Shown here piece after piece: positions 48,710 to 64,000 of a DNA stretch of 64,000 nucleotides; within the stretch, counting starts at the first letter, position 1, and each line of letters begins with the position of its first letter. Below the pieces are notes generated by a model. That model saw nothing but the letters and a program-made list of their open reading frames with translations. It searched no databases and had not been told where the DNA came from. The DNA comes from Brachyspira sp. SAP_772 (GTDB lineage: Bacteria; Spirochaetota; Brachyspiria; Brachyspirales; Brachyspiraceae), in the NCBI RefSeq assembly GCF_009755885.1, contig NZ_VYIX01000002.1, forward strand, positions 730,864 to 794,863, written 5' to 3'. Both the position numbers and the translations under genes were made by a program.

Positions 48710-50659
48710 CTAAAAATTATACCCAACTTCAAATTCAAAAGTAAATGGCTTTGCTACTGAATAGGTTGATAACATAGGGGTTCTATTCAATATGTTCTTA
48801 AAATGCATAGAAAATATTAAATGCTTAAACCATATAGAATAAAATGATATATTCAAATTATGAAACTCTTCTGAATAATATACGGGCTTATTTGATGTCA
48901 TCGCTCTTGGGCTTGAATATATATAATAAATATTAAAAGATAATGAGCTTAATATTTTACCATCTGAAACAAAATCATATCCAAGCAGTGCCGTTACAAC
49001 ATTATTAGGCAAACCTATTTTTGGAAGTTTTTCTGCGTTAAGATATGCTAGCTGATAAGAATATTCTATTTTTGCTTTTATTTTATTGTAGGTTAAAAAG
49101 TAAATATCATATCCTATGCTTGAAGAAAATACATGAGCTATAGCACTGTCTGCATTTTCTGGAATACTGCTGTACCATATTATTTTATTTGTGTAGGTGG
49201 TGTATGTGTATGCGGATTCTATTTTTAAGTTTGTTATTGGTTCTAATGATATTTTAGTGAGTATTTGATTATAGGTTTCTGGTTTTAAGTTTGGGTTGCT
49301 GAAGTTGCCGTAATACAAATCATTAAATGTTGGGCTTGTATAATCGCTCATATAGGCAAAATACAAACTATAGCCTTTATAAAAGTTTAAATTAAATCCT
49401 GCATTATATGCTAAATAATTATTATGTTTTTGATTTGTAAAAAGTTCATTTTGATATTCATATTTTATACTTGGCATAAGTGTGAATATTGGAGTATTAT
49501 TATCCCAGTATCCGAACGAAAGCTGAAAATCATATTTTATATTTAGTGAATGTCTTTGAGGGTTATATTTAAAATTAGTTTCTAAGGCATTTTTTTCTTC
49601 TGTAAGTATATCGTATCTATATTCGGGAGTTAGTTGGTTATATAATGTAATAGTGTTTGGTATAAGTTCATCCATTCTTTTTAATGTTGTATTTATAGCT
49701 AATCCATGTGATTTATAATCTGATACAAATTTTCCGTTTTGAAGATATGGTCTGTCTACAAATGAATCAAACAAGTATGAGAGATTTATATTATAATCCA
49801 GCACATCAGAAAAGCCGTTGTATGATATAGATGAAGCTAGAGTTGTAAAATTAAACCATGAATCAGTATAGATTATTGGAGGAATTTGATATTGTGATGC
49901 TGAACTTGAATATGATATATTTGCAAATGCATTTATATAGTCTTTATTTTTAAATATATATTTATAGTTAGCAGAAGAGTTTATTATAAATTGTCTGTTG
50001 TCTTCAATGTTTCCTTCAACCCATTTGCCTGCTAGGTTTGTGAAGTTATAATAATAATTAGCGTCGCTGTAATAAGAATCTGCTGTAAAGGTGAATATTT
50101 GATTATCGTCTATATTTTTTGAAAACAGTATTGAAGGGGCTATTGTATTGTATGAGCCATATGATAATGATAAAAGTATAATATCTTCTTTTGGAGTTTT
50201 TGTTGTGATGTAAATTGAAGAGCCTATTATCTCTATTTTTTCTATGAGGTTTGAAGGTATTCTTCTTAAGTCCACACCTGCATCAGCATTACCTTTAGCA
50301 GTATTCATCAAAACGCCGTTAATATATATTTTTATATTGTCAGCATTTCCAAAAGCAGGGTCAACCACTTCATTACCCATATAGCTTCCCTTGTTTACAA
50401 AGCCAGCCTGATTTTCTAATACTTCTTTAGCATTGTTGTAGCCCATTCTCTCTATTTCTTCAGAGGTGATAGTTTTGTTATTTACATTTATAGGGCTTTT
50501 GTATGATGAGTTTGAAGAGTTATTATTTGTTTGAGTATTATTGGTTGTTTCTACCTGTGAAGTAACCCATATACCTCCTTTAAGCTCTCTTATAAGGTAA
50601 GTTTGCGAATACAATAAATTTATAGAAGCAAAAAAGAAGTATATGATAAAACGTTTCAT
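48710..50659 (-). CDS. btuB: TonB-dependent outer-membrane receptor, probable cobalamin receptor
   Basis: A 649-residue protein: signal peptide (MKRFIIYFFFASINLLYSQ), Asn/Thr-rich linker, plug domain (TSEEIERMGYNNAKEVLENQ near 64-83, NIKIYINGVLMNT near 109-121, VDLRRIPSNLIEKIEII near 130-146) and a 22-strand-like barrel with FNDLYYGNFSNPNLKPETYNQ near 461-481 and a final Phe. No clear TonB box is visible. The upstream cobalamin riboswitch (51291-51412) and the lipoprotein between them suggest uptake of vitamin B12 or a related corrinoid. The symbol rests on riboswitch context, not on specific residues. Confidence 0.8.
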   Translation of the reverse strand: MKRFIIYFFFASINLLYSQTYLIRELKGGIWVTSQVETTNNTQTNNNSSNSSYKSPINVNNKTITSEEIERMGYNNAKEVLENQAGFVNKGSYMGNEVVDPAFGNADNIKIYINGVLMNTAKGNADAGVDLRRIPSNLIEKIEIIGSSIYITTKTPKEDIILLSLSYGSYNTIAPSILFSKNIDDNQIFTFTADSYYSDANYYYNFTNLAGKWVEGNIEDNRQFIINSSANYKYIFKNKDYINAFANISYSSSASQYQIPPIIYTDSWFNFTTLASSISYNGFSDVLDYNINLSYLFDSFVDRPYLQNGKFVSDYKSHGLAINTTLKRMDELIPNTITLYNQLTPEYRYDILTEEKNALETNFKYNPQRHSLNIKYDFQLSFGYWDNNTPIFTLMPSIKYEYQNELFTNQKHNNYLAYNAGFNLNFYKGYSLYFAYMSDYTSPTFNDLYYGNFSNPNLKPETYNQILTKISLEPITNLKIESAYTYTTYTNKIIWYSSIPENADSAIAHVFSSSIGYDIYFLTYNKIKAKIEYSYQLAYLNAEKLPKIGLPNNVVTALLGYDFVSDGKILSSLSFNIYYIYSSPRAMTSNKPVYYSEEFHNLNISFYSIWFKHLIFSMHFKNILNRTPMLSTYSVAKPFTFEFEVGYNF

Positions 50660-50665
50660 AATTAT

Positions 50666-51217
50666 TTATTGTTGTTGATTATAATTAAAGTCTTTTATTA
50701 TACCTGTAATATATGAACCCCAGCTAGACATTATTTTTTTCCAATCTTCTTCTGTTGGAGGCTCTGCACCTGTAGCACCTGTATCAAATCCTGAAGCAAG
50801 CATAAAGTTTCCATCTGTATCTATATGAAATAACATCCATTTACTATCATATTCTGGTCTTCTTGGGTCTTCATATAATGCACCTATCCAGTTTGTGCCT
50901 TTCCATTCTATATTTGTAGCATATATAAAATTACCTAACACTTCGCCGTTTTCTAAATATGTGCCTTTTTCATCTGTTTCTCTTGTGGCAGTTGTTACGC
51001 CTGCGGGTATTATTGCTTGATTTGTGAATGTATTTAGCCAGTTGGTGCGGAAATATTCTTGCTTATTTTTATCAGTCCAGCTTAGGCTTAAAATACTTTC
51101 ATCTGTGAGAAGTTTATATTCTCCTCTTTGTGATTGTGTGGTATTAGGTTGGTTTGGGTTAGTACAAGATAAAAAAGAAAAAATTATTAATGTTGAAACA
51201 AATATTGTTTTAAACAT
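50666..51217 (-). CDS. Lipoprotein in the cobalamin-riboswitch operon
   Basis: A 183-residue lipoprotein (FLSC lipobox, Cys18). The mature part is beta-rich with many Trp and Tyr (LSLSWTDKNKQEYFRTNWLN, TNIEWKGTNWIGALYED, KWMLFHIDTDGNFMLASGF) and ends in a helix EEDWKKIMSSWGSYITGI. I know no such family. It is the first gene after the riboswitch and ends 6 bases before the TonB receptor, so it may be a surface or periplasmic corrinoid-binding partner, by inference only. AAGGAG precedes the ATG. Confidence 0.72.
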   Translation of the reverse strand: MFKTIFVSTLIIFSFLSCTNPNQPNTTQSQRGEYKLLTDESILSLSWTDKNKQEYFRTNWLNTFTNQAIIPAGVTTATRETDEKGTYLENGEVLGNFIYATNIEWKGTNWIGALYEDPRRPEYDSKWMLFHIDTDGNFMLASGFDTGATGAEPPTEEDWKKIMSSWGSYITGIIKDFNYNQQQ

Positions 51218-54041: not shown

Positions 54042-55304
54042 TTATATTTTATCAATATTAGAATATTCGTTTACAATTTTTTCTACTTTTTCTATATTGT
54101 CGATATTATCTTTATTTACTAAAAACTCTCTTCCTATGTTTAGGCATATCCAATCTAATCTTGCCCTTTCATTTAAATCTTCAATTCCTGATATATCTTT
54201 ATTTTTAGCAAGACCTAATGTTCTTCTTATAAGCACGCATCCTGCAAAACCAACAGTATCTCTAAATATTCTATTTAATACGGTTTTTATATATTCTTCT
54301 GAATGTTTTTTTCCTTCTTCGTATTGCCAATATAAGGGTTTAGTTTTTTCTAAATGACTTTTCCATAGAGCTTCAAATTTAGTTAAAGTTCCACTAAGCA
54401 TATATTTAGCAGTATCAAAAAGCCATTTTCTATATTCTTTTGAATTAGTGCCTAGTCTTTTTTGATGATATTCATGCGAAACATAAGCCATAAAGAAATT
54501 AGCCATAGCCTTTCCAATATCAAAACCAATAGGGCCGTAGAATGCAAACTCTGGGTCTATTACATAAGTCTCTTCTTCATTTACCATAAAGCTTCCTAAA
54601 TGAAAATCACCATGAAGAAGTGCTTCTGCTTTAGTCATAAAAGCATATTTCATTTCAGCTGCGGCTGTTTTTAATTTTGAATCTCTTTGGAATTTTTTTA
54701 CTTTATCTATATTTAATTCATCATAAAACACATTAGTATCATTATCTTCAAAAGGATAAGTAAAAATAAAATCTTCTGTAAGGCTGCATAATTCTGCATT
54801 CATATATTCAGCAACAAGAGCTTTTTTTGTTTTTGAATTCAAATAATAATCAGAAGTGTAGAATAAAGTTTTTGAAAGGAAGTCTGTTAAATCTTCAGCT
54901 AGTTTAGGGAATCTTTTACCTTCTATAATTTCTCCTCTTAAAACTTTATGTTTATTTAAGTTTTGCATTATAACAACGCACATATCTTCAGAGTCATAAT
55001 ATATTTTAGGCACTAAATTAGGACATAATTTATATTCTTCTTTAAGCGTTTTTATCTCTATTTTCATTCTGTCTTTTTCTAATGGATAGCTTTCTCCTAT
55101 GCATCTTAAAAAAGGCACAGATTGTTTTAATATTACAGTTTCTTTATCATTATTTTTATTTGTGATGCTGTATACAAAATTTAAATTTCCATCTCCAATT
55201 TCTTTTATGATTAAATCATCAAAGCTTGAGAATATATTTTTCATTTCATCTATAGTTTTTAAATAATCTATGATTGTATTTATATTTAATTGTTTATAAG
55301 CCAT
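54042..55304 (-). CDS. mtnK: 5-methylthioribose kinase
   Basis: A 420-residue kinase that phosphorylates 5-methylthioribose (and in some bacteria 5-deoxyribose) at C1. Features: IKEIGDGNLNFVYSITNK near 29-46 (nucleotide loop), LLHGDFHLGSFMV near 232-244 (catalytic loop), VIDPEFAFYGPIGFDIGKAMANF near 250-272 (metal and substrate site). AAGGAG precedes the ATG. It follows mtnA by 36 bases in the same transcript as the ArsS-like gene. Confidence 0.9.
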   Translation of the reverse strand: MAYKQLNINTIIDYLKTIDEMKNIFSSFDDLIIKEIGDGNLNFVYSITNKNNDKETVILKQSVPFLRCIGESYPLEKDRMKIEIKTLKEEYKLCPNLVPKIYYDSEDMCVVIMQNLNKHKVLRGEIIEGKRFPKLAEDLTDFLSKTLFYTSDYYLNSKTKKALVAEYMNAELCSLTEDFIFTYPFEDNDTNVFYDELNIDKVKKFQRDSKLKTAAAEMKYAFMTKAEALLHGDFHLGSFMVNEEETYVIDPEFAFYGPIGFDIGKAMANFFMAYVSHEYHQKRLGTNSKEYRKWLFDTAKYMLSGTLTKFEALWKSHLEKTKPLYWQYEEGKKHSEEYIKTVLNRIFRDTVGFAGCVLIRRTLGLAKNKDISGIEDLNERARLDWICLNIGREFLVNKDNIDNIEKVEKIVNEYSNIDKI

Positions 55305-55340
55305 ATGTAAAAAACTCCTTTTATTTATTAGTTTAAATAG

Positions 55341-56387
55341 TTAGTTTAAATCAAAAGCCTTTTTCAAACTTTTTTGATATGGAGGCTTTATTATTCCTTT
55401 TTCTGTGATAAAACCTGTTATAAGTTCATTTGGAGTAACATCGAATGCAGGATTTCTCACTTTAATATTTGAAGGAGCAGTTTGAACACCTGCGAAATTT
55501 ATCACTTCTTTAGCCTCTCTCTCTTCTATTACTATGCTGCTGCCTGTTTTTGTATTTAAATCGAAAGTAGTAGAAGGACAAGCAATATAAAAAGGTATAT
55601 TAAAATGTTTAGCTAAAATAGCCACTCCCATAGTACCTATTTTGTTAGCGGCATCCCCATTCTCAGCAACCCTGTCGCATCCTACTATCACCAAATCAAT
55701 AAGCCCCTTAGACATTATAAAAGCAGCCATATTATCGCATATCAAAGTAACATCTATTCCAGCCTCCTGCAGCTCAAAACTTGTTAGTCTTGCTCCTTGA
55801 AGAAGCGGTCTAGTTTCGTCAGCGTATACTCTTATATTTATTCCTCTTTGATGTGCCGTATACATTGGTGCAAGTGCTGTTCCTATTCCGCTTACTGCTA
55901 ATCTTCCTGCATTACAATGGGTTAATATTCCAGAGTTTTCTTTTAAAAGTGTTGCCCCATATTCGCCTATTTTTTGACATATATCAATATCTTCAGAATG
56001 TATATTTTTAGCTTCACTTTCAAGCAAATCATATAGCTCTAAAGAAGTTTTGTCTTTCTTATTATTTATAGCATTAAACATTCTGTTTAGAGCATAACTT
56101 AAATTAACAGCCGTAGGTCTTGAAGAGTTTAAATATTTAGCTCTCTTTTCTATTAGGCCAATAAAATCATTGCTTGATAAATTAGTTTCTTTTTTTAAAT
56201 CTATTAGCAAAGAATAAGCAGCAGCTACTCCAATAGCAGGAGCACCTCTTACCTTTAACTCTTTTATAGCGTTATAAGAATCTTCAATACTTGATAACTT
56301 TATTTCTTTAACAGTTGCAGGCAATAATGTTTGATCAAGTATAAATAATTCATCTTCGCTCCATCTTACTGTAGGTATATTTGGCAT
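55341..56387 (-). CDS. mtnA: Methylthioribose-1-phosphate isomerase
   Basis: A 348-residue isomerase of the eIF2B-like family that opens the sugar-1-phosphate made by MtnK to the ribulose form. RGAPAIGVAAAYSL near 48-61, LTHCNAGRLA near 156-165 (catalytic Cys), ADETRPLLQGARLTSFEL near 190-207 and GCDRVAENGDAANKIGT near 236-252 (catalytic Asp) are intact. Later methionine-salvage genes (mtnB, C, D) are not in the window, so the pathway may be the truncated dihydroxyacetone-phosphate shunt. Confidence 0.93.
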   Translation of the reverse strand: MPNIPTVRWSEDELFILDQTLLPATVKEIKLSSIEDSYNAIKELKVRGAPAIGVAAAYSLLIDLKKETNLSSNDFIGLIEKRAKYLNSSRPTAVNLSYALNRMFNAINNKKDKTSLELYDLLESEAKNIHSEDIDICQKIGEYGATLLKENSGILTHCNAGRLAVSGIGTALAPMYTAHQRGINIRVYADETRPLLQGARLTSFELQEAGIDVTLICDNMAAFIMSKGLIDLVIVGCDRVAENGDAANKIGTMGVAILAKHFNIPFYIACPSTTFDLNTKTGSSIVIEEREAKEVINFAGVQTAPSNIKVRNPAFDVTPNELITGFITEKGIIKPPYQKSLKKAFDLN

Positions 56388-56466
56388 TAGTACTCTCCTA
56401 ATTTTTTATAAAACTTAACAGAACAATTATTAAATTATTATTTTTTTTATAAATTTAATAATAATA

Positions 56467-57414
56467 TTATTGCAAATTTCCCTGACAGCTGCTTCCTTCT
56501 CCCGCAGTACATCCATAACAATAATCTTCCACTACAATAGAGTTTTCTTCTAAATCATCAATAGTTAAATCTCCTATATATTTATTGTGTACAGATGCTA
56601 ATTTTTTCATTTGATTAAAATCACAGTCATACACCTTACCATCATAACCAACATTGATTGTATTTAAACACATAACCTTATAAGCGTTTGATGCATTAAA
56701 ATTATCTTCAAGAAGCTGCATATATTTGTCGTACTTATTATTTTTTTTAAGCTTCTCTTCAAATCTTCCTATAGGTATATTAGTGATAGTATATAAATTA
56801 TTAAATACTATTTTATGTTCATTTTTTAAATGTTCTTTATAATCTTTTTCTAATTCAGCCTGAGAGCCGGGTAAATAATCATCTAGTGGATTATAAACTA
56901 AATTGATAATCAAATCTTTATCAACACCATAACCTACAGAGTTTAGATATTTAAGCATATTTATACATTTTTCATAAGTGCCGTTTCCTCTCTGTTCATC
57001 TACATTTTCTTTAGTATAGCAGGGAAGTGATGCTACTAATTCTACTTTGTTATTTTTAAAAACTTCTATAAGTTCTTTTTTATCTTCTAAAATAGTTAAA
57101 TTGCTTCTTAATATAATTCTATTTACATTTTTTAATTTTCTTGCATCTTCTATAAACTTAGATAGAAACATACAATTTTCAGGAGCACCTCCTGTTATAT
57201 CAACATCTATTTTTTTGTTGTAATTTTTTATGAATTTTAAACAATCATCTAACACCTCTTTGCTTATAGATTCATTTCTGTTTATTCCAGCATCCACATG
57301 ACAATGACTGCAATGCAAATTACAATTATACCCAACATTAATTTGTAAAGTTTCTATTTCTTTCTTTTTTAATTCTATATTATGTTTTTTTAAAGTTTCA
57401 GAAAAATGTGCCAT
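56467..57414 (-). CDS. arsS: ArsS-type radical SAM protein (rSAM/Cys-rich family)
   Basis: A 315-residue radical SAM enzyme. The cluster motif is Cys31-x3-Cys35-x2-Cys38 (YNCNLHCSHC), with VDITGGAPE near 63-71 binding SAM. The C-terminal part has VMCLNTINVGYDGKVYDCDFNQM near 247-269 and EDYCYGCTAGEGSSCQGN near 296-313, the Cys-rich ending of the ArsS family (TIGR04167). ArsS makes deoxyadenosyl-arsenic compounds together with ArsM; no arsM is seen here, so the substrate may differ. AAGGAG precedes the ATG. It lies 79 bases upstream of mtnA, with the same direction. Confidence 0.87.
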   Translation of the reverse strand: MAHFSETLKKHNIELKKKEIETLQINVGYNCNLHCSHCHVDAGINRNESISKEVLDDCLKFIKNYNKKIDVDITGGAPENCMFLSKFIEDARKLKNVNRIILRSNLTILEDKKELIEVFKNNKVELVASLPCYTKENVDEQRGNGTYEKCINMLKYLNSVGYGVDKDLIINLVYNPLDDYLPGSQAELEKDYKEHLKNEHKIVFNNLYTITNIPIGRFEEKLKKNNKYDKYMQLLEDNFNASNAYKVMCLNTINVGYDGKVYDCDFNQMKKLASVHNKYIGDLTIDDLEENSIVVEDYCYGCTAGEGSSCQGNLQ

Positions 57415-57692
57415 TTTTGTATACTCCTTAATTTATTACAACCTATTGTTTTATAATCTAATTTTTGAAATACAGTCTTTAAAACAAATTTAAACTACAA
57501 TAAAATTTCTTATAAACTTAATTATAGAAATCTATATTATATAAATATTATTTGTTAAAATTATTTTATTAAATTATTTTTTATTGAATATGATTATTTA
57601 GATTCACGATCTAATTTGATTAGAAAATAAGAGGGATTTTATTTTTGTAATAAATTGAAAGACTGTATTTCATAATTAAATGCTGTTTTTTA
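57415..57692. other. Intergenic region with a 15-bp inverted repeat
   Basis: The 278 bases between the rhodanese and arsS genes are AT-rich and contain no gene. They hold the inverted repeat 57466-57480 / 57658-57672. Confidence 0.6.
57466..57672. repeat. Possible small inverted-repeat-bounded element
   Basis: TGAAATACAGTCTTT (57466-57480) and its exact complement AAAGACTGTATTTCA (57658-57672) enclose 177 bases without coding capacity. This is the layout of a MITE-like element, though no target-site duplication was recognised. Confidence 0.4.
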
Positions 57693-58094
57693 TTATTTAG
57701 CTAAAGCCTTAGATAAATCATCATAACCAGCATTATTAAGGTTATTCACATTAGAAAAACCTAAATCAGCCATTATTTTAGAAGCCTGTCCAGAGCGGTT
57801 TCCAGTTCTGCAGAATAATATATATTCTTTGCTTTTGTCTAATGATGAAACTTTTTCTTTGAAATCTGCTGCTTTGAAGTCTATATTAGTAGAACCTTCT
57901 ATAGCACCTATTTCAGCAATCTCTTCCGGAGTTCTAACATCAATCACTATAATGTCAGGATTTGATTGCCATAGAGTGATAACTTCATCTACAGTTAGAT
58001 TATTATAATTTACTGCATCTTCTGAAGTTTGTGATGAATTGCTGCAGCTTATTAATAATAATAATGCAAAAGAAATTATAATGCTTTTTCTCAT
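57693..58094 (-). CDS. Rhodanese-domain lipoprotein
   Basis: A 133-residue lipoprotein (LISC lipobox, Cys17) with one rhodanese domain: VDEVITLWQSNPDIIVIDVRTPEEIAE near 36-62, the active-site Cys95 in FCRTGNRSG and a final LNNAGYDDL. Rhodaneses transfer sulphane sulphur or bind reactive anions. A periplasmic single-domain rhodanese next to an rSAM/VTT cluster is typical of those loci. It is divergent from the VTT operon and the first gene upstream of arsS, 278 bases away. Confidence 0.88.
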   Translation of the reverse strand: MRKSIIISFALLLLISCSNSSQTSEDAVNYNNLTVDEVITLWQSNPDIIVIDVRTPEEIAEIGAIEGSTNIDFKAADFKEKVSSLDKSKEYILFCRTGNRSGQASKIMADLGFSNVNNLNNAGYDDLSKALAK

Positions 58095-58458
58095 AATAAA
58101 AACTCTCCTTTTGTTTATAAAAATTTCAAATATGATAACATATAGATGATTATAGTCAATAAATAAATTATCTTTTAAGAATATATAATAATTTGTATGA
58201 AAAATTAATAATTATTTTTTATAGTCTACTTGATATTTTTACTTTTTTTGGTTAATATTTTATGTATTAATTTATTGGAGCTTATATGCTAAAAGTATAT
58301 TCCAAAATAAAATTTAGCACATTTTTTAACAAGCACAAATTCCCTCTTCAATAATAATCTATCATAGTCCGTGAGACTTATATTTATCAAATTCAAATAA
58401 TTATTAAAAAAAATAAAAGTTTTTGTATACTTTTGTATATATTTAGGAGTTTAGACCT
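58095..58458. other. Divergent intergenic region
   Basis: The 364 bases between the rhodanese gene and the VTT operon are AT-rich and should carry both promoters. No gene, riboswitch or strong hairpin was recognised, apart from a short TTGTATACTTTTGTATATA stretch just before the AGGAG site. Confidence 0.5.
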
Positions 58459-59193
58459 ATGTCTGAAAATAAGAAATCATTAATAAAAAAAATTATTTTA
58501 CTGCTAATAATAGTAATTTGTGTGTTAGCATACTTTTTTATACCAGTAGTAAACAGCAATATTAATGCAATATTTAAAATGTTTGCTACAGGAGATTTTA
58601 ATGTTGTAAAAGAGTTTGTAGCTTCTTATGGACATTATGCTATGGCTGTTTCATTTATGCTTATGGTTTTTCAATCTATAGCAGCTCCTTTACCAGCATT
58701 TTTGATTACATTTGCAAATGCTAATTTATTTGGATGGAAGGCGGGGGCTTTATTATCTTGGTCTAGTGCTATGGCGGGTGCTGCTGTATGTTTTTATATA
58801 GCAAGAATATTGGGAAGAGATTTTGTTGAGAAACTTACAAGTAAAACGGGGCTTAAACAGATAGATGACTTCTTTGCTAAATATGGAAGGCAAAGCATTC
58901 TTATAGCAAGACTACTTCCTTTTATTTCTTTTGATATAGTAAGTTATGCTGCTGGGCTTACCTCAATGAATTTTTTAAGCTTTTTTATAGCAACTGGTAT
59001 AGGTCAGCTTCCTGCTACAATAGTTTATTCTTATGTGGGAGGAATGCTTACTGGCGGAGCTAAATTGTTTGTTACAGGGCTTTTAATATTATTTGCTTTA
59101 TCTGCATTAATAATTCTATTAAGACAAATATATAAAAACAAAAAAGATAAAACTGAAAATAATAATTTAAAAAAAAATGAAAATGAAATCTAA
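58459..59193 (+). CDS. VTT-domain membrane protein (TVP38/TMEM64 family), first
   Basis: A 244-residue membrane protein with about six hydrophobic segments. The core LPAFLITFANANLFGWKAGALLSW near 76-99 and RQSILIARLLPFISFDIVSYAAGLTSMN near 139-166 match the VTT/SNARE-associated DedA-like superfamily (re-entrant loop, conserved Arg-x-x-P-x). Members are implicated in lipid flipping or membrane homeostasis, and TVP38 genes often sit in ArsS/selenium loci. AGGAG precedes the ATG. The next VTT gene overlaps its end by 17 bases. Confidence 0.82.
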   Translation: MSENKKSLIKKIILLLIIVICVLAYFFIPVVNSNINAIFKMFATGDFNVVKEFVASYGHYAMAVSFMLMVFQSIAAPLPAFLITFANANLFGWKAGALLSWSSAMAGAAVCFYIARILGRDFVEKLTSKTGLKQIDDFFAKYGRQSILIARLLPFISFDIVSYAAGLTSMNFLSFFIATGIGQLPATIVYSYVGGMLTGGAKLFVTGLLILFALSALIILLRQIYKNKKDKTENNNLKKNENEI

Positions 59194-59851
59194 ATATATA
59201 AAATTAGCAATATTTATATTAGCGGTAATTGTAATCGTTATTGTTAATCATCATTATAAATTGCATGAGAGGTTTCATAATTTTGATGATTTTAAATATA
59301 TGATAGGCGACAATATTATTAAAGCATCTATAATATATATTATAGCAACTGCTGTTGGAAGTTCTGTATTAGCATTGCCCGGAGTTACATTTGCATTATT
59401 TTCTGGAATATTATTTGGGCCTGTGCTTGGTATTATATTATGTTCTTTATCTTCTACTTTGGCTGCTGTAATTTCTTTTTTGATTTCAAGATTTTTTCTT
59501 AAGGATGCTGTAAAACCGCTTGTAGAGAAAAATAAGTGCTTGAATAAACTTTTATTTGAAGATGGAAATAAAAATGCTATGCTTCTTTTAATGATTACTA
59601 GGTTAGTGCCTTTGTTTCCATATAATATACAAAATTTTGCTTATGGCATTACTGATGTAAGTTTTATAAAATATTCTCTATACACATTTTTGTTTATGCT
59701 TCCCGGAATATCTTTATTTACCATAGCATCTGTAGGCATAGTTTCACAGGATAATAAATATTTATATTTTTTAATATCTGCGGCTATATTGATATTTGTG
59801 CTTATTATATCATTTTTGCTTAAGAAGAAATATTTAAATAAATGTACTTAA
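59177..59851 (+). CDS. VTT-domain membrane protein (TVP38/TMEM64 family), second
   Basis: A 224-residue protein with about six hydrophobic segments, homologous in layout to the preceding one: LALPGVTFALFSGILFGPVLGI near 64-85 and LLLMITRLVPLFPYNIQNFAYGITDVSF near 134-161. It begins 17 bases before the first gene's stop, so the two are translationally coupled. The pair is too diverged to be a recent duplicate. Confidence 0.82.
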   Translation: MKMKSKYIKLAIFILAVIVIVIVNHHYKLHERFHNFDDFKYMIGDNIIKASIIYIIATAVGSSVLALPGVTFALFSGILFGPVLGIILCSLSSTLAAVISFLISRFFLKDAVKPLVEKNKCLNKLLFEDGNKNAMLLLMITRLVPLFPYNIQNFAYGITDVSFIKYSLYTFLFMLPGISLFTIASVGIVSQDNKYLYFLISAAILIFVLIISFLLKKKYLNKCT

Positions 59852-59876
59852 AAAAAATTAAAAAAGGAGCAATAAA

Positions 59877-60557
59877 ATGTATAAAAAAATTATTTTATTT
59901 GCATGTTTATCAGTAATGCTGATATCATGCGGCAATCAAGCATCAAATGCATCTTCTAATTCTCAATTAACTAATTCTATTGGGAGTGCTATATTAAGAG
60001 ACAATGGTGCTGAGCCTGTTATTATTAATGCTGACAAAAAAGAGATAATAATAGAAGCTATAGTAAACGGCAAATATTTTACTAATCCTTCAAGACATCA
60101 TGGCATAGTGTTTGAAGGCGGAAAATATGGAGATAGGGCAGTTTTAATAGGCTTATCAGATGAAAGAGAAGTTTATCAGGCTTTAATTGATATAGGAGCT
60201 ATAGCTGGAAATAATCTAAAATTAGAAGAATATACAAAGGTGAGTAAGAATGTAGACGGACAGCAATTAGATGTATATGTTACTTGGGACGGTTTGGGTA
60301 AAGAGATTCCTTTTGCTGAGATAATAAAGTCAGATGATGTAAGGGATATGGATATTAGATTTGGAGGAAACTTCGAGGCTGCTAAAGACAATAGAACAGG
60401 ATGCATACTTTGTCTTGACAGCTGTCCTATAGCTATAACAAGTGATGCAGCTTATGCTACTGCTGAATTAGAAAATAAAAAGATAGACAAGTTTATAAGA
60501 GAAGATATATTGCCAAAAGACGGAGAGAGAGTTTCTGTTATATTTAGAATAAAATAA
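59877..60557 (+). CDS. YdjY-domain lipoprotein, copy 1
   Basis: A 226-residue lipoprotein (LISC lipobox, Cys18). The mature domain follows the YdjY family: VNGKYFTNPSRHHGIVFEGG near 63-82, ALIDIGAIAGNN near 102-113, LDVYVTWDGLGKEIPFAEII near 131-150 and a Cys176-x2-Cys179-x3-Cys183 motif (TGCILCLDSCP). The three cysteines may bind a cluster or react with thiols. It is 26 bases after the VTT stop and 42 before its paralogue. Confidence 0.82.
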   Translation: MYKKIILFACLSVMLISCGNQASNASSNSQLTNSIGSAILRDNGAEPVIINADKKEIIIEAIVNGKYFTNPSRHHGIVFEGGKYGDRAVLIGLSDEREVYQALIDIGAIAGNNLKLEEYTKVSKNVDGQQLDVYVTWDGLGKEIPFAEIIKSDDVRDMDIRFGGNFEAAKDNRTGCILCLDSCPIAITSDAAYATAELENKKIDKFIREDILPKDGERVSVIFRIK

Positions 60558-60598
60558 TTAAATATTTTATATAAAAAATTTAAAAAGGAGATAGTAGT

Positions 60599-61291
60599 AT
60601 GAATAAAAAAATTATTATTATTTTGTCTGCATGTTTATCACTAATGTTTATATCATGCGGAAATCAATCATCACAAAATGCATCTGAAGGTGTTCAATTA
60701 ACTAATTCTATGGGAAGCGTTATATTAAGAGATGAGGGAGCAGAGCCTGTTATAATAGATGTAGAAAAGAAAGAAGTTATAATTCCTGCAGAAGTAAACG
60801 GCAAATATTTTAATTCGCCGACAAGACATGGTGTTGTATTTGATAGGGGTTCAAACGGGGATAAATCTGTTTTAAGGGGATTAGCAGATGAGAGAGAATT
60901 TTATCAGGCTTTGATTGATATAGGAGCTGTAGCTGGCAATAATCTCACTATGGATGACATGAAATTAGGAAAAACAGTTGATGGACAAAAATTAGATGTA
61001 TTTGTTACTTGGGACGGTTTGGGCAAAGAGATTCCTTTTGCTGAAATAATAAGATCAGATGAAGAAAGACCTATGGATATAAGATTCGGCGGAAATATAG
61101 AAAATGCTAAAGCAAAAAGAACAGGATGTATACTTTGTCTTGATAGCTGTGCTGTTGGTATAACAAGCGACGCTGCTTATGAAACTGGTGCTGTTGAAAT
61201 GAAAAAAATAGGAAGATACGGCAGAGAAGATGTATTGCCTGCAGATGGCACAAGAGTTTCTGTTATATTTAGAATAGCTCAAGATAAATAA
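60599..61291 (+). CDS. YdjY-domain lipoprotein, copy 2
   Basis: A 230-residue paralogue of the preceding gene (roughly two thirds identical by eye), lipobox FISC (Cys20), with the same Cys177-x2-Cys180-x3-Cys184 motif and VNGKYFNSPTRHGVVFDRG, VTWDGLGKEIPFAEII and DIRFGGN blocks. The first copy has an extra His in SRHHG. The pair points to a local duplication kept by selection. AAGGAG precedes the ATG. Confidence 0.82.
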   Translation: MNKKIIIILSACLSLMFISCGNQSSQNASEGVQLTNSMGSVILRDEGAEPVIIDVEKKEVIIPAEVNGKYFNSPTRHGVVFDRGSNGDKSVLRGLADEREFYQALIDIGAVAGNNLTMDDMKLGKTVDGQKLDVFVTWDGLGKEIPFAEIIRSDEERPMDIRFGGNIENAKAKRTGCILCLDSCAVGITSDAAYETGAVEMKKIGRYGREDVLPADGTRVSVIFRIAQDK

Positions 61292-61314
61292 TTAAATTAT
61301 AAAAGGATTGATAG

Positions 61315-61722
61315 GTGAAATATTTTATTGTGCTGTATAATACTTTTTTATGGGCTATGATTATTTCTTTTATTATGTTTAAAAATCTATGGCTTGAAAT
61401 GCGTATGAATATAGGTTTATGCTTTTTTATAATATGGGCTTTACTTTTTATTATATTTATTTTTATTAATAACAAAAAACATATTTTTGAAAAACATTCA
61501 ATATTCTCGCTTATCAATCTTATTGTATGTTTTATAATTGCTTTAATTATATTATCGCCTTCTGCTATATTATATACTCCTTCTTCTATTATAAGAGATG
61601 GTTTGTATGCTAAGAGATTATTAAAATTAAACACTATTAATATAGCTTTGTTTATATTTATGTTTGGCGGTATTTTAATTATATTAATTTCATCTTTAAA
61701 TAAAAAATTTAATAAAAAATAA
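61315..61722 (+). CDS. Hypothetical small membrane protein
   Basis: A 135-residue protein with four hydrophobic segments (about 2-20, 32-51, 64-85 and 110-130) and short charged loops. No family is recognised. The start is GTG at 61315 with AAGGA about nine bases upstream. It lies between the YdjY genes and transferase 1, in the same operon. Confidence 0.68.
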   Translation: MKYFIVLYNTFLWAMIISFIMFKNLWLEMRMNIGLCFFIIWALLFIIFIFINNKKHIFEKHSIFSLINLIVCFIIALIILSPSAILYTPSSIIRDGLYAKRLLKLNTINIALFIFMFGGILIILISSLNKKFNKK

Positions 61723-61736
61723 AGAAGTGCGGCTAA

Positions 61737-62396
61737 ATGAAATCTAATGCTTTAATAATATTTACTAGAATACCTATCGCAGGCAAAACAAAAACTAGAC
61801 TTCAGAAAAAATTATCAGCTGAGGAATGCTGCAATCTTCATAAATGTTTTTTAAAAGATATTTATAAAAAAATTATAAGCTTAAAACAAAATAATATTGA
61901 TATTATAATAGCATATAATCCGGATGGGGATTTAAATATACTAAAAGAAATATTTTATGATGAGGAAAAATATATAAAACAAGAGATAAACTCTCCTAAT
62001 GAAAATGAAAAAATATATAATTCTATGAAAGAAGTATTTTCTCTTGGATATAAGAAGTGCATATTAATAGGAACTGATATACCGGAGATAGATGAAAAAG
62101 ACATTATTGATTCTTTTGAGTTATTGGATAATAATGATTTTGTATTTGGGCCTAGCTATGATGGTGGGTATTATTTAGTAGGAATGAAAGAGTATAATGA
62201 TATAATAGTGAAAGTTAATAGCGGCACTCTTAATAATATTTTAGCTGCTATAGAAAATATTAATTTGAAATATTTTCTTATAGAGAAAAGACATGATATT
62301 GATGAATATGATGATTTATTGGCTTTAAATAGCAGGATAAATAATGATAAAAAAATAATAAACACAAGTAATTTTTTAAAAAGCATTAATTTATAA
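61737..62396 (+). CDS. rSAM/selenodomain-associated transferase 1 (TIGR04282-type)
   Basis: A 219-residue nucleotidyl/glycosyl-transferase-like protein. LIIFTRIPIAGKTKTRL near 6-22, CILIGTDIPEIDE near 103-115 and FGPSYDGGYYLVGM near 134-147 are the signatures of the family named rSAM/selenodomain-associated transferase 1 (DUF2064-like). The product is unknown, but the family co-occurs with ArsS-type radical SAM genes, as here. It is 14 bases after the membrane protein gene. Confidence 0.87.
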   Translation: MKSNALIIFTRIPIAGKTKTRLQKKLSAEECCNLHKCFLKDIYKKIISLKQNNIDIIIAYNPDGDLNILKEIFYDEEKYIKQEINSPNENEKIYNSMKEVFSLGYKKCILIGTDIPEIDEKDIIDSFELLDNNDFVFGPSYDGGYYLVGMKEYNDIIVKVNSGTLNNILAAIENINLKYFLIEKRHDIDEYDDLLALNSRINNDKKIINTSNFLKSINL

Positions 62397-62414
62397 TAAT
62401 TAGGATTTTTTTAA

Positions 62415-63098
62415 GTGTCTGTTTCTATAATCATACCAATTTTAAATGAAGAAAATACAATAGAAAAATTGATAAGCAATTTAAATGAGCTTGAAGGGGA
62501 GTTTGAAGTTATATTCTCTGACGGTGGAAGCAGCGATAAAACATTAAGCATATTAAACAGTGTAATAAAAAATAATTATAAAATAGTTCATTCTCAAAAG
62601 GGAAGGGCTAAGCAATTAAATAATGGAGCTAAAGAGAGCAGATACAACATTCTTTTGTTTTTGCATTCTGACAGCATTTTAGAAAAAGATGTTTTAATAA
62701 AAATAGAAAACTTTATTAAAACTAATAAAGCAGGGTGCTTAAAAATAAAATTTGACAGCAGAAAAATATTAATGCATATATGCGGATTTTTTTCTAATTT
62801 GAGAGTTTCATTAAGGCATATAGCTTTTGGAGATCAGGGTATATTTATAAAGAAAGAATTATTTTATGATATAGGAATGTTTGATGATATAGCTCTTATG
62901 GAAGATTATAAATTGTCTATAAAATTAAAAAAGGTTTGTCCAATAAAGGCTATTGATTCATATATAATTTCATCTGCTAGAAGGTTTGAAAAAAATGGCA
63001 TTATAAAGACTATGATTTGTATGCAGAAGCTTCAGTATATGTTTAGAAGCGGTGAAGATATAGAAAAGATAGCTAATATATATAACAATATGAAATGA
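62415..63098 (+). CDS. rSAM/selenodomain-associated transferase 2 (TIGR04283-type GT2)
   Basis: A 227-residue family-2 glycosyltransferase. SIIIPILNEENTIEKLI near 3-19, VIFSDGGSSDKTL near 33-45, GRAKQLNNGAKES near 63-75, LFLHSDSILEKD near 80-91 (the DxD-like metal site is His-Ser-Asp-Ser) and FGDQGIFIKKELF near 139-151 match the family. The start is GTG at 62415. It follows transferase 1 by 18 bases and the Fe-S protein starts 10 bases after. Confidence 0.87.
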   Translation: MSVSIIIPILNEENTIEKLISNLNELEGEFEVIFSDGGSSDKTLSILNSVIKNNYKIVHSQKGRAKQLNNGAKESRYNILLFLHSDSILEKDVLIKIENFIKTNKAGCLKIKFDSRKILMHICGFFSNLRVSLRHIAFGDQGIFIKKELFYDIGMFDDIALMEDYKLSIKLKKVCPIKAIDSYIISSARRFEKNGIIKTMICMQKLQYMFRSGEDIEKIANIYNNMK

Positions 63099-63108
63099 GG
63101 ATTTTTTT

Positions 63109-64000
63109 ATGAAGATGCCAGATAATGTAAAAGACTGTATTCATTGTAACAAGTGCATAAAAAAATGCAGTTTTTTAACTAAATATAACATGGATTTGGA
63201 AGAGTTTTCTAAAAGAGGATATTTGGCATATCATTGTTTTTTATGTAATGATTGTAAGATAGTATGCCCTAAGGATATAGACGGCTCTAAGATATCTTTA
63301 GCTTTGAGGCATAGTAAAGTAGAATCATCTAAAGATAACAAAAAGGAAATAGAAAAAAAATATAGAGCTTTATTGTTTGAGAAAAAAGATTATATATTTA
63401 AAAACTATAGTAATGTGATAAGTGAGTCTGTAATTTTTCCGGGATGCAATTTTTCATCATTTTATCCTGATGCTTTAAAAGATATATTACACAAATTTAA
63501 AAAAGAATATAATATTGGAGTGGTATTTGACTGCTGCGGGAAACCTATAGCTGAGTTGGGAATAGAAGAATATGAAGCAAATATAATAAAAAAATTAGAA
63601 GAGAATATGCTTTCAAGGGGAGTTAAGGAGATAATAACTTTATGTCCTAATTGTTATTATTTTTTAAAGCCTAGAATTAATATAAAAATTATCACTATAT
63701 ATGAGAAGATGAATGAGCTTGGATTAAAATTTAATTTAAATAAAAAAGAAGAGATAAATCTTTTTGTACCTTGCCCAGATAAAGAGACAAAATATATAAA
63801 AGATTCTATATTAAAGATTATTGATTTGGATAAAGATAAAATAAAAGAGATAAATGATGTTAATTGCTGCGGGTTAGGGGGATGTGCTATTTCTAATGAA
63901 AGAGAATTGGCGGAAGGATTTATAGATAAACTTAAAGAGAAGAATATTGAAGAGTTATATGTTTACTGTGCTACTTGTGCGGGTAATTTTAATAGGCATA
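63109..64000 (+). CDS. (Fe-S)-binding CCG-domain protein, cut by the window end
   Basis: The frame is open from ATG 63109 to the window edge (297 codons). Two ferredoxin-type motifs at the N-terminus (CIHCNKCIKKC and CFLCNDCKIVCP) precede two cysteine-rich CCG segments (FPGCNF with CCGKP; PCPDKET with CCGLGG), then YCATCAGNF. The layout is that of heterodisulfide-reductase D/glycolate oxidase-type iron-sulphur subunits. It is the last visible gene of the rSAM-associated operon; no flavin or membrane domain is seen within the window. Confidence 0.85.
   Translation, partial: MKMPDNVKDCIHCNKCIKKCSFLTKYNMDLEEFSKRGYLAYHCFLCNDCKIVCPKDIDGSKISLALRHSKVESSKDNKKEIEKKYRALLFEKKDYIFKNYSNVISESVIFPGCNFSSFYPDALKDILHKFKKEYNIGVVFDCCGKPIAELGIEEYEANIIKKLEENMLSRGVKEIITLCPNCYYFLKPRINIKIITIYEKMNELGLKFNLNKKEEINLFVPCPDKETKYIKDSILKIIDLDKDKIKEINDVNCCGLGGCAISNERELAEGFIDKLKEKNIEELYVYCATCAGNFNRH

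Follow-up and report, generated by a model that had tools for sequence, protein, structure and literature searches.

An arsS-family radical SAM gene and a conserved ydj-type envelope block in Brachyspira: a possible ArsM-less variant of the bacterial arsenosugar pathway

The 64,000-nucleotide stretch of DNA analysed here (the window, G000:C2:730864-794863, from Brachyspira sp. SAP_772) carries at positions 54042-64000 an arsS-family radical S-adenosylmethionine (SAM) gene, the methionine salvage genes mtnK and mtnA, and a block of plus-strand genes in the order VTT-VTT-YdjY-membrane protein-TIGR04282-TIGR04283-CCG. DNA past position 64000 was also read. The gene set is real, conserved and selected, and in this genus arsS has been found only where the block is present. 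We tentatively read the locus as a version of the bacterial arsenosugar pathway that does without ArsM and may work with an anaerobic, E. coli ydj-type envelope module, a reading which we hold to be possible and far from secure. The genes are as follows.

54042 to 55304, minus strand: mtnK (TIGR01767, 508.7 bits)
55341 to 56387, minus strand: mtnA, 5-methylthioribose-1-phosphate isomerase (TIGR00512, 444.9 bits)
56467 to 57414, minus strand: arsS-family radical SAM gene, cysteine form (TIGR04167, 396.9 bits, curated cut-off 300), with a DUF3641 C-terminal domain
57693 to 58094, minus strand: single-domain rhodanese lipoprotein (PF00581; lipobox LISC read from the sequence)
58095 to 58458: divergent intergenic region of 364 nucleotides between both transcription directions (a computed gap)
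58459 to 59193, plus strand: VTT1 (PF09335), relative of E. coli YdjZ (54.5% identity; 58% to an Acetoanaerobium protein)
59177 to 59851, plus strand: VTT2 (PF09335), relative of E. coli YdjX (30.5% identity)
59877 to 60557, plus strand: YdjY lipoprotein 1, motif GCxxCLDSC (NF040466, 122 bits, cut-off 50)
60599 to 61291, plus strand: YdjY lipoprotein 2, motif GCxxCLDSC (NF040466, 150 bits, cut-off 50; 43% identity to E. coli YdjY)
61315 to 61722, plus strand: small membrane protein of 135 amino acids, no family (no Pfam match; by tblastn in the block of 9 of 9 genomes)
61737 to 62396, plus strand: TIGR04282 transferase, nucleotidyltransferase fold (147.5 bits, cut-off 134; solved relative 3cgx)
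62415 to 63098, plus strand: TIGR04283, a family 2 glycosyltransferase (246.7 bits, cut-off 182)
63109 to 64000, running on to about 64113, plus strand: CCG-domain 4Fe-4S protein (PF02754; the full reading frame is L002:11973-12977)

All genes named for the stretch are intact open reading frames (ORFs) matching known families, mostly above curated cut-offs. A first-pass annotation of this DNA had named the ArsS gene, the two VTT, two YdjY and membrane proteins, the two transferases, the CCG protein and the divergent rhodanese lipoprotein; each is borne out as an intact ORF of the family given, and the list only left out mtnK and mtnA. The lipoboxes of the YdjY proteins and rhodaneses can be read straight from the sequence. 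Beyond the window, after the end of the CCG gene, come a gene for a small membrane protein and then a divergent one for a second, tandem-rhodanese lipoprotein that shares 39% identity with E. coli YnjE. The CCG protein is about 25% identical to CCG proteins adjoining ydj-type modules.

The genus was sampled with 26 genomes. TIGR04283 is above cut-off in nine of them, and YdjY is found in exactly the same nine. The gene order of the block, which the first-pass annotation had proposed to compare among relatives, is identical in all nine carriers (in G020 the block is divided between two contigs). It is found in at least three distinct genomic neighbourhoods, and the gaps between its genes are mostly below 50 nucleotides, implying that it is mobile and maintained as one unit. 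Nearly all genes compared have a ratio of nonsynonymous to synonymous substitution rates of about 0.09-0.2, indicating purifying selection; for the 135-residue membrane protein it is 0.43, from few sites.

Two irregular copies were seen among the carriers. The CCG gene of G016 is broken into two frames (L136:10660-11650), by a frameshift or an assembly error. G002 has a third YdjY copy (L126:14488-15183), which is apparently decaying, with many stops in the profile match.

ArsS is present in seven of the nine block genomes and in none of the 17 genomes without the block. In one of the other two carriers (G013), one contig stops just beyond the rhodanese gene and another starts at mtnA; arsS probably lies in this assembly gap. 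Mapped on an rpoB tree, the distribution of the block takes five changes to explain and that of ArsS three, which means that both were gained or lost more than once, with ArsS tracking the block. The single-domain rhodanese lipoprotein gene adjoins arsS in most ArsS genomes. In G002 and G018, two genes separate arsS from the rhodanese gene (L126:8935-11222, L133:9125-11430). One is sodium:solute symporter-like and the other is phosphoesterase-like without a family match, and arsS also has relatives of these genes in its vicinity in another spirochaete, in a betaproteobacterium and in flavobacteria.

ArsS retains its cysteines (C31, C35, C38, C249, C264, C299, C302, and C310), including the CX3CX2C motif and the C-terminal cysteine motif. 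Every residue that is invariant among 106 homologues is kept except one proline (P44). The AlphaFold model has a radical SAM fold with a mean predicted local distance difference test score (pLDDT) of 91.6. A fold search returned general radical SAM/SPASM-type matches (SkfB: Z 19.4, root-mean-square deviation 3.1, 239 residues aligned), which do not tell the substrate. Residue conservation and the model, taken with the divergence described below, support an active enzyme whose substrate is possibly altered. In TIGR04283 all conserved residues are kept. For YdjY, no PDB relative was found by sequence search, and the predicted structure (pLDDT 32) is unusable.

As the first-pass annotation stated, arsM is absent: there is no match in the organism's own genome and none above cut-off in the 26 genus genomes. 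A distant ArsM in the genus was rejected, the best match being 50 bits and consisting of fragments only, and an OvoA-type methyltransferase, at first taken for ArsM, proved not to be one. Other organisms share this lack: an ArsM match of at least 100 bits is also missing in 21 of 53 other ArsS genomes, some of them incomplete (16 of 33 other spirochaetes and 5 of 20 other bacteria). Where ArsM is missing, one has to reckon with arsenic from outside the cell or with a different substrate. For ArsL, a related radical SAM enzyme of arsenic metabolism, As(III) serves as substrate without ArsM (PMC8552651). Selenium genes, the other companions the first-pass annotation had thought worth seeking, do not track the block either: SelD is in 25 of the 26 genomes irrespective of block status. 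As ArsS also has cysteine and not selenocysteine, the selenium reading was rejected.

The two transferases in the middle of the block tie it to ArsS in other bacteria. Among 80 diverse ArsS loci, TIGR04282 was found near ArsS in 41, an AhpD-like gene in 33, TIGR04283 in 26, and methylthioadenosine (MTA) phosphorylase (MtnP) and ArsM in 16 each. An Acinetobacter plasmid cluster consists of arsS, a VTT/flavin adenine dinucleotide (FAD) gene, DUF547, TIGR04283, TIGR04282, a methyltransferase, a phosphate transporter (PiT), and mtnP. In a spirochaete with a complete genome (G339, L205), arsS, AhpD, a YnjE-like rhodanese lipoprotein, a symporter, a phosphoesterase-like gene, TIGR04282 and a second rhodanese lipoprotein lie within 10 kb. 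Three further spirochaetes (G139, G140, and G180; L226, L225, and L224) have ArsM and ArsS matches in one ORF of about 680-706 amino acids, and these frames suggest natural ArsM-ArsS fusions. No open-access paper on ArsS in spirochaetes or on an MtnP-ArsS link was found in the limited library searched, which is weak evidence of absence.

The mtnA-mtnK pair lies directly downstream of arsS in five of the seven ArsS genomes. The arsS-mtnA gap is 79 nucleotides here, and in G018 the arsS-mtnA-mtnK gaps are 6 and 3 nucleotides. There are two MtnK types in the genus. The type found in the window occurs in 17 of the 26 genomes, usually in a lone mtnA-mtnK pair, and mtnK was therefore rejected as an ArsS-specific gene. 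MtnP was not found in any of the 26 genomes. It is described that MtnP replaces a nucleosidase and a kinase (PMC10986504), and the nucleosidase MtnN is reported in Brachyspira hyodysenteriae (PMC2650404). Both arrangements would therefore yield 5-substituted ribose-1-phosphate, which suggests that this compound, made by MtnP elsewhere and by MtnN and MtnK here, is the intermediate feeding the two 'arsenosugar' transferases.

The chemical steps, the element and the product that follow are what we infer from these genes. ArsS would transfer the 5'-deoxyadenosyl moiety from SAM to a trivalent metalloid not methylated by the cell itself, either arsenic that other gut microbes have methylated or inorganic As(III). 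Adenine would then be taken off by MtnN, and MtnK would phosphorylate carbon 1 to give 5-substituted ribose-1-phosphate; in other ArsS bacteria, an MtnP-type phosphorylase beside arsS would perform adenine removal and phosphorylation together. TIGR04282 may activate or transfer the sugar, and TIGR04283 may attach it to a lipid or to a small acceptor. The VTT pair, the two cysteine-motif YdjY lipoproteins, the rhodanese lipoproteins and the CCG protein would carry the product, or a precursor, through the membrane and provide reducing or sulphur-transfer chemistry. The whole scheme, an envelope glycoconjugate of 5-deoxy-5-metalloid-ribose made without methylation by the cell, with MtnN and MtnK standing in for MtnP and with export or thiolation by a sulphur/redox module of the ydj type, is unlikely to hold in every part. 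The first-pass annotation had likewise imagined an envelope glycoconjugate containing arsenic, selenium or sulphur. The lipoproteins and VTT proteins do point to the envelope, nothing singles out selenium, and the glycoconjugate itself is conjectural. If a metalloid-ribose glycoconjugate were indeed made, the widespread ydjXYZ-ynjE module would thereby gain its first assigned function.

Several observations weigh against an arsenosugar pathway coupled to the block. Near-invariant positions of ArsS are altered in all seven genomes (including G178D, S254N, L270K, and H298Y), and TIGR04282 lacks one glycine and one tryptophan that are near-invariant elsewhere, so that the substrates of both may differ. 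In a quick tree, the ArsS proteins of the genus group in one clade whose branch is long and isolated (1.53 changes per column), apart from nearly all other spirochaete ArsS; its single spirochaete neighbour is also long-branched and the join is unsure. ArsS is the only arsenic gene shown in the genome, and MtnA beside MtnK indicates breakdown as well as synthesis. G001 carries the entire block and truly lacks ArsS, and the block and the arsS unit are at separate places in G008 (15 kb apart), G010 and G016 (far apart in both). Thus the single locus pictured by the first-pass annotation survives only in part: the block keeps its order in nine genomes, but the stretch as a whole is not conserved as a single cluster, because the arsS unit can be separated from the block. 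The co-occurrence it asserted does hold, as ArsS and the transferase block are found together in related genomes even when far apart on the chromosome. The same separations favour two modules that are often adjacent and share no product, namely an ArsS-mtnA-mtnK salvage or organoarsenic unit and a ydjXYZ-ynjE-type anaerobic envelope module in which the transferase pair replaces the ynjBCD transporter and ynjF. The envelope module occurs without ArsS in E. coli and Acetoanaerobium, and in E. coli ydjXYZ-ynjABCD and ynjE are activated by FNR, i.e., anaerobically (PMC3688515), indicating an anaerobic function of its own. However, every ArsS genome of the genus (7/7) has the block, TIGR04282 and TIGR04283 in mid-block are the usual ArsS neighbours elsewhere, and rhodanese lipoproteins flank both units. 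We regard independent modules as rather unlikely.

The altered positions of ArsS could also mean that the architecture is as proposed and the element is not arsenic. ArsS would then adenosylate a species of sulphur or selenium, which the rhodaneses would carry. The two rhodanese lipoproteins and the lack of ArsM throughout the genus fit this idea, as does a weak match of the YnjE-like protein to the selenite/tellurite-operon rhodanese family (40 bits, cut-off 200). But the presence of SelD does not depend on the block, the iron-sulphur residues of ArsS are all conserved, and we know of no characterised ArsS with a sulphur or selenium substrate, which makes another element quite improbable. MtnA, which does not fit a purely biosynthetic use, is the main reason to keep a catabolic explanation, in which 5'-deoxyadenosine (by-product or adduct) would pass through MtnN, MtnK and MtnA to ribulose-1-phosphate and be split by an aldolase as in the dihydroxyacetone phosphate (DHAP) shunt, with no sugar conjugate made from it. 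It agrees with the biochemistry of that shunt (PMC10986504, PMC12632272) and with the tight arsS-mtnA-mtnK spacing in G018. In G001, G002 and G014, moreover, mtnA-mtnK is flanked by genes that read as parts of a sugar ATP-binding cassette (ABC) transporter, which would suit a scavenging operon. No aldolase gene was seen with the pair in the window locus or in the read flanks of six relatives, however, and the tracking of TIGR04282 and TIGR04283 by ArsS is left unexplained. Of the explanations considered, breakdown alone seems to us the most doubtful.

Promoter-like matches in the 364-nucleotide divergent region are not commoner than in shuffles, and Rfam and tRNA scans gave no matches. Elsewhere in the window (48710-51217, minus strand) lie a TonB-dependent-receptor-like gene and, before it, a lipoprotein gene.

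Since ArsS without ArsM is common, the role of ArsS in such genomes is a testable question, and this locus links ArsS to the E. coli ydj-type module. Compared with known systems, the locus is not of the selenoprotein type, as ArsS has no selenocysteine and no selenium genes track the block. It resembles the DHAP shunt and methionine salvage in its tight mtnK and mtnA pair, which here is directly downstream of arsS with no adjacent aldolase gene. Like the Synechocystis ArsM-ArsS arsenosugar pathway and the NCBIfam 'arsenosugar biosynthesis' families, it has ArsS (TIGR04167) together with TIGR04282 and TIGR04283, all above curated cut-offs. Unlike that pathway, in which methylation by ArsM normally precedes ArsS and supplies dimethylarsenite, it has no ArsM (nor does the genome), MtnP or AhpD-type TIGR04169 gene, and its ArsS and TIGR04282 bear lineage-specific changes. 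The E. coli ydjXYZ genes are carried with ynjABCD and ynjE, and the locus belongs with this module by its two VTT proteins, YdjY with GCxxCLDSC, and YnjE-like rhodanese. Acetoanaerobium has CCG, ABC transporter, cytidine diphosphate (CDP)-alcohol phosphatidyltransferase, YdjY and two VTT genes in a row (named from sequence, the record being unannotated), and Ilyobacter has VTT, rhodaneses, a FAD-CCG fusion, an ABC transporter and a CDP-alcohol phosphatidyltransferase. In contrast to these three, no ynjBCD transporter ORFs were found in the locus, the DNA read past position 64000 included, there is no CDP-alcohol phosphatidyltransferase, and YdjY is duplicated. From these likenesses, the block is best described as a ydj-type module with the transferase pair inside it.

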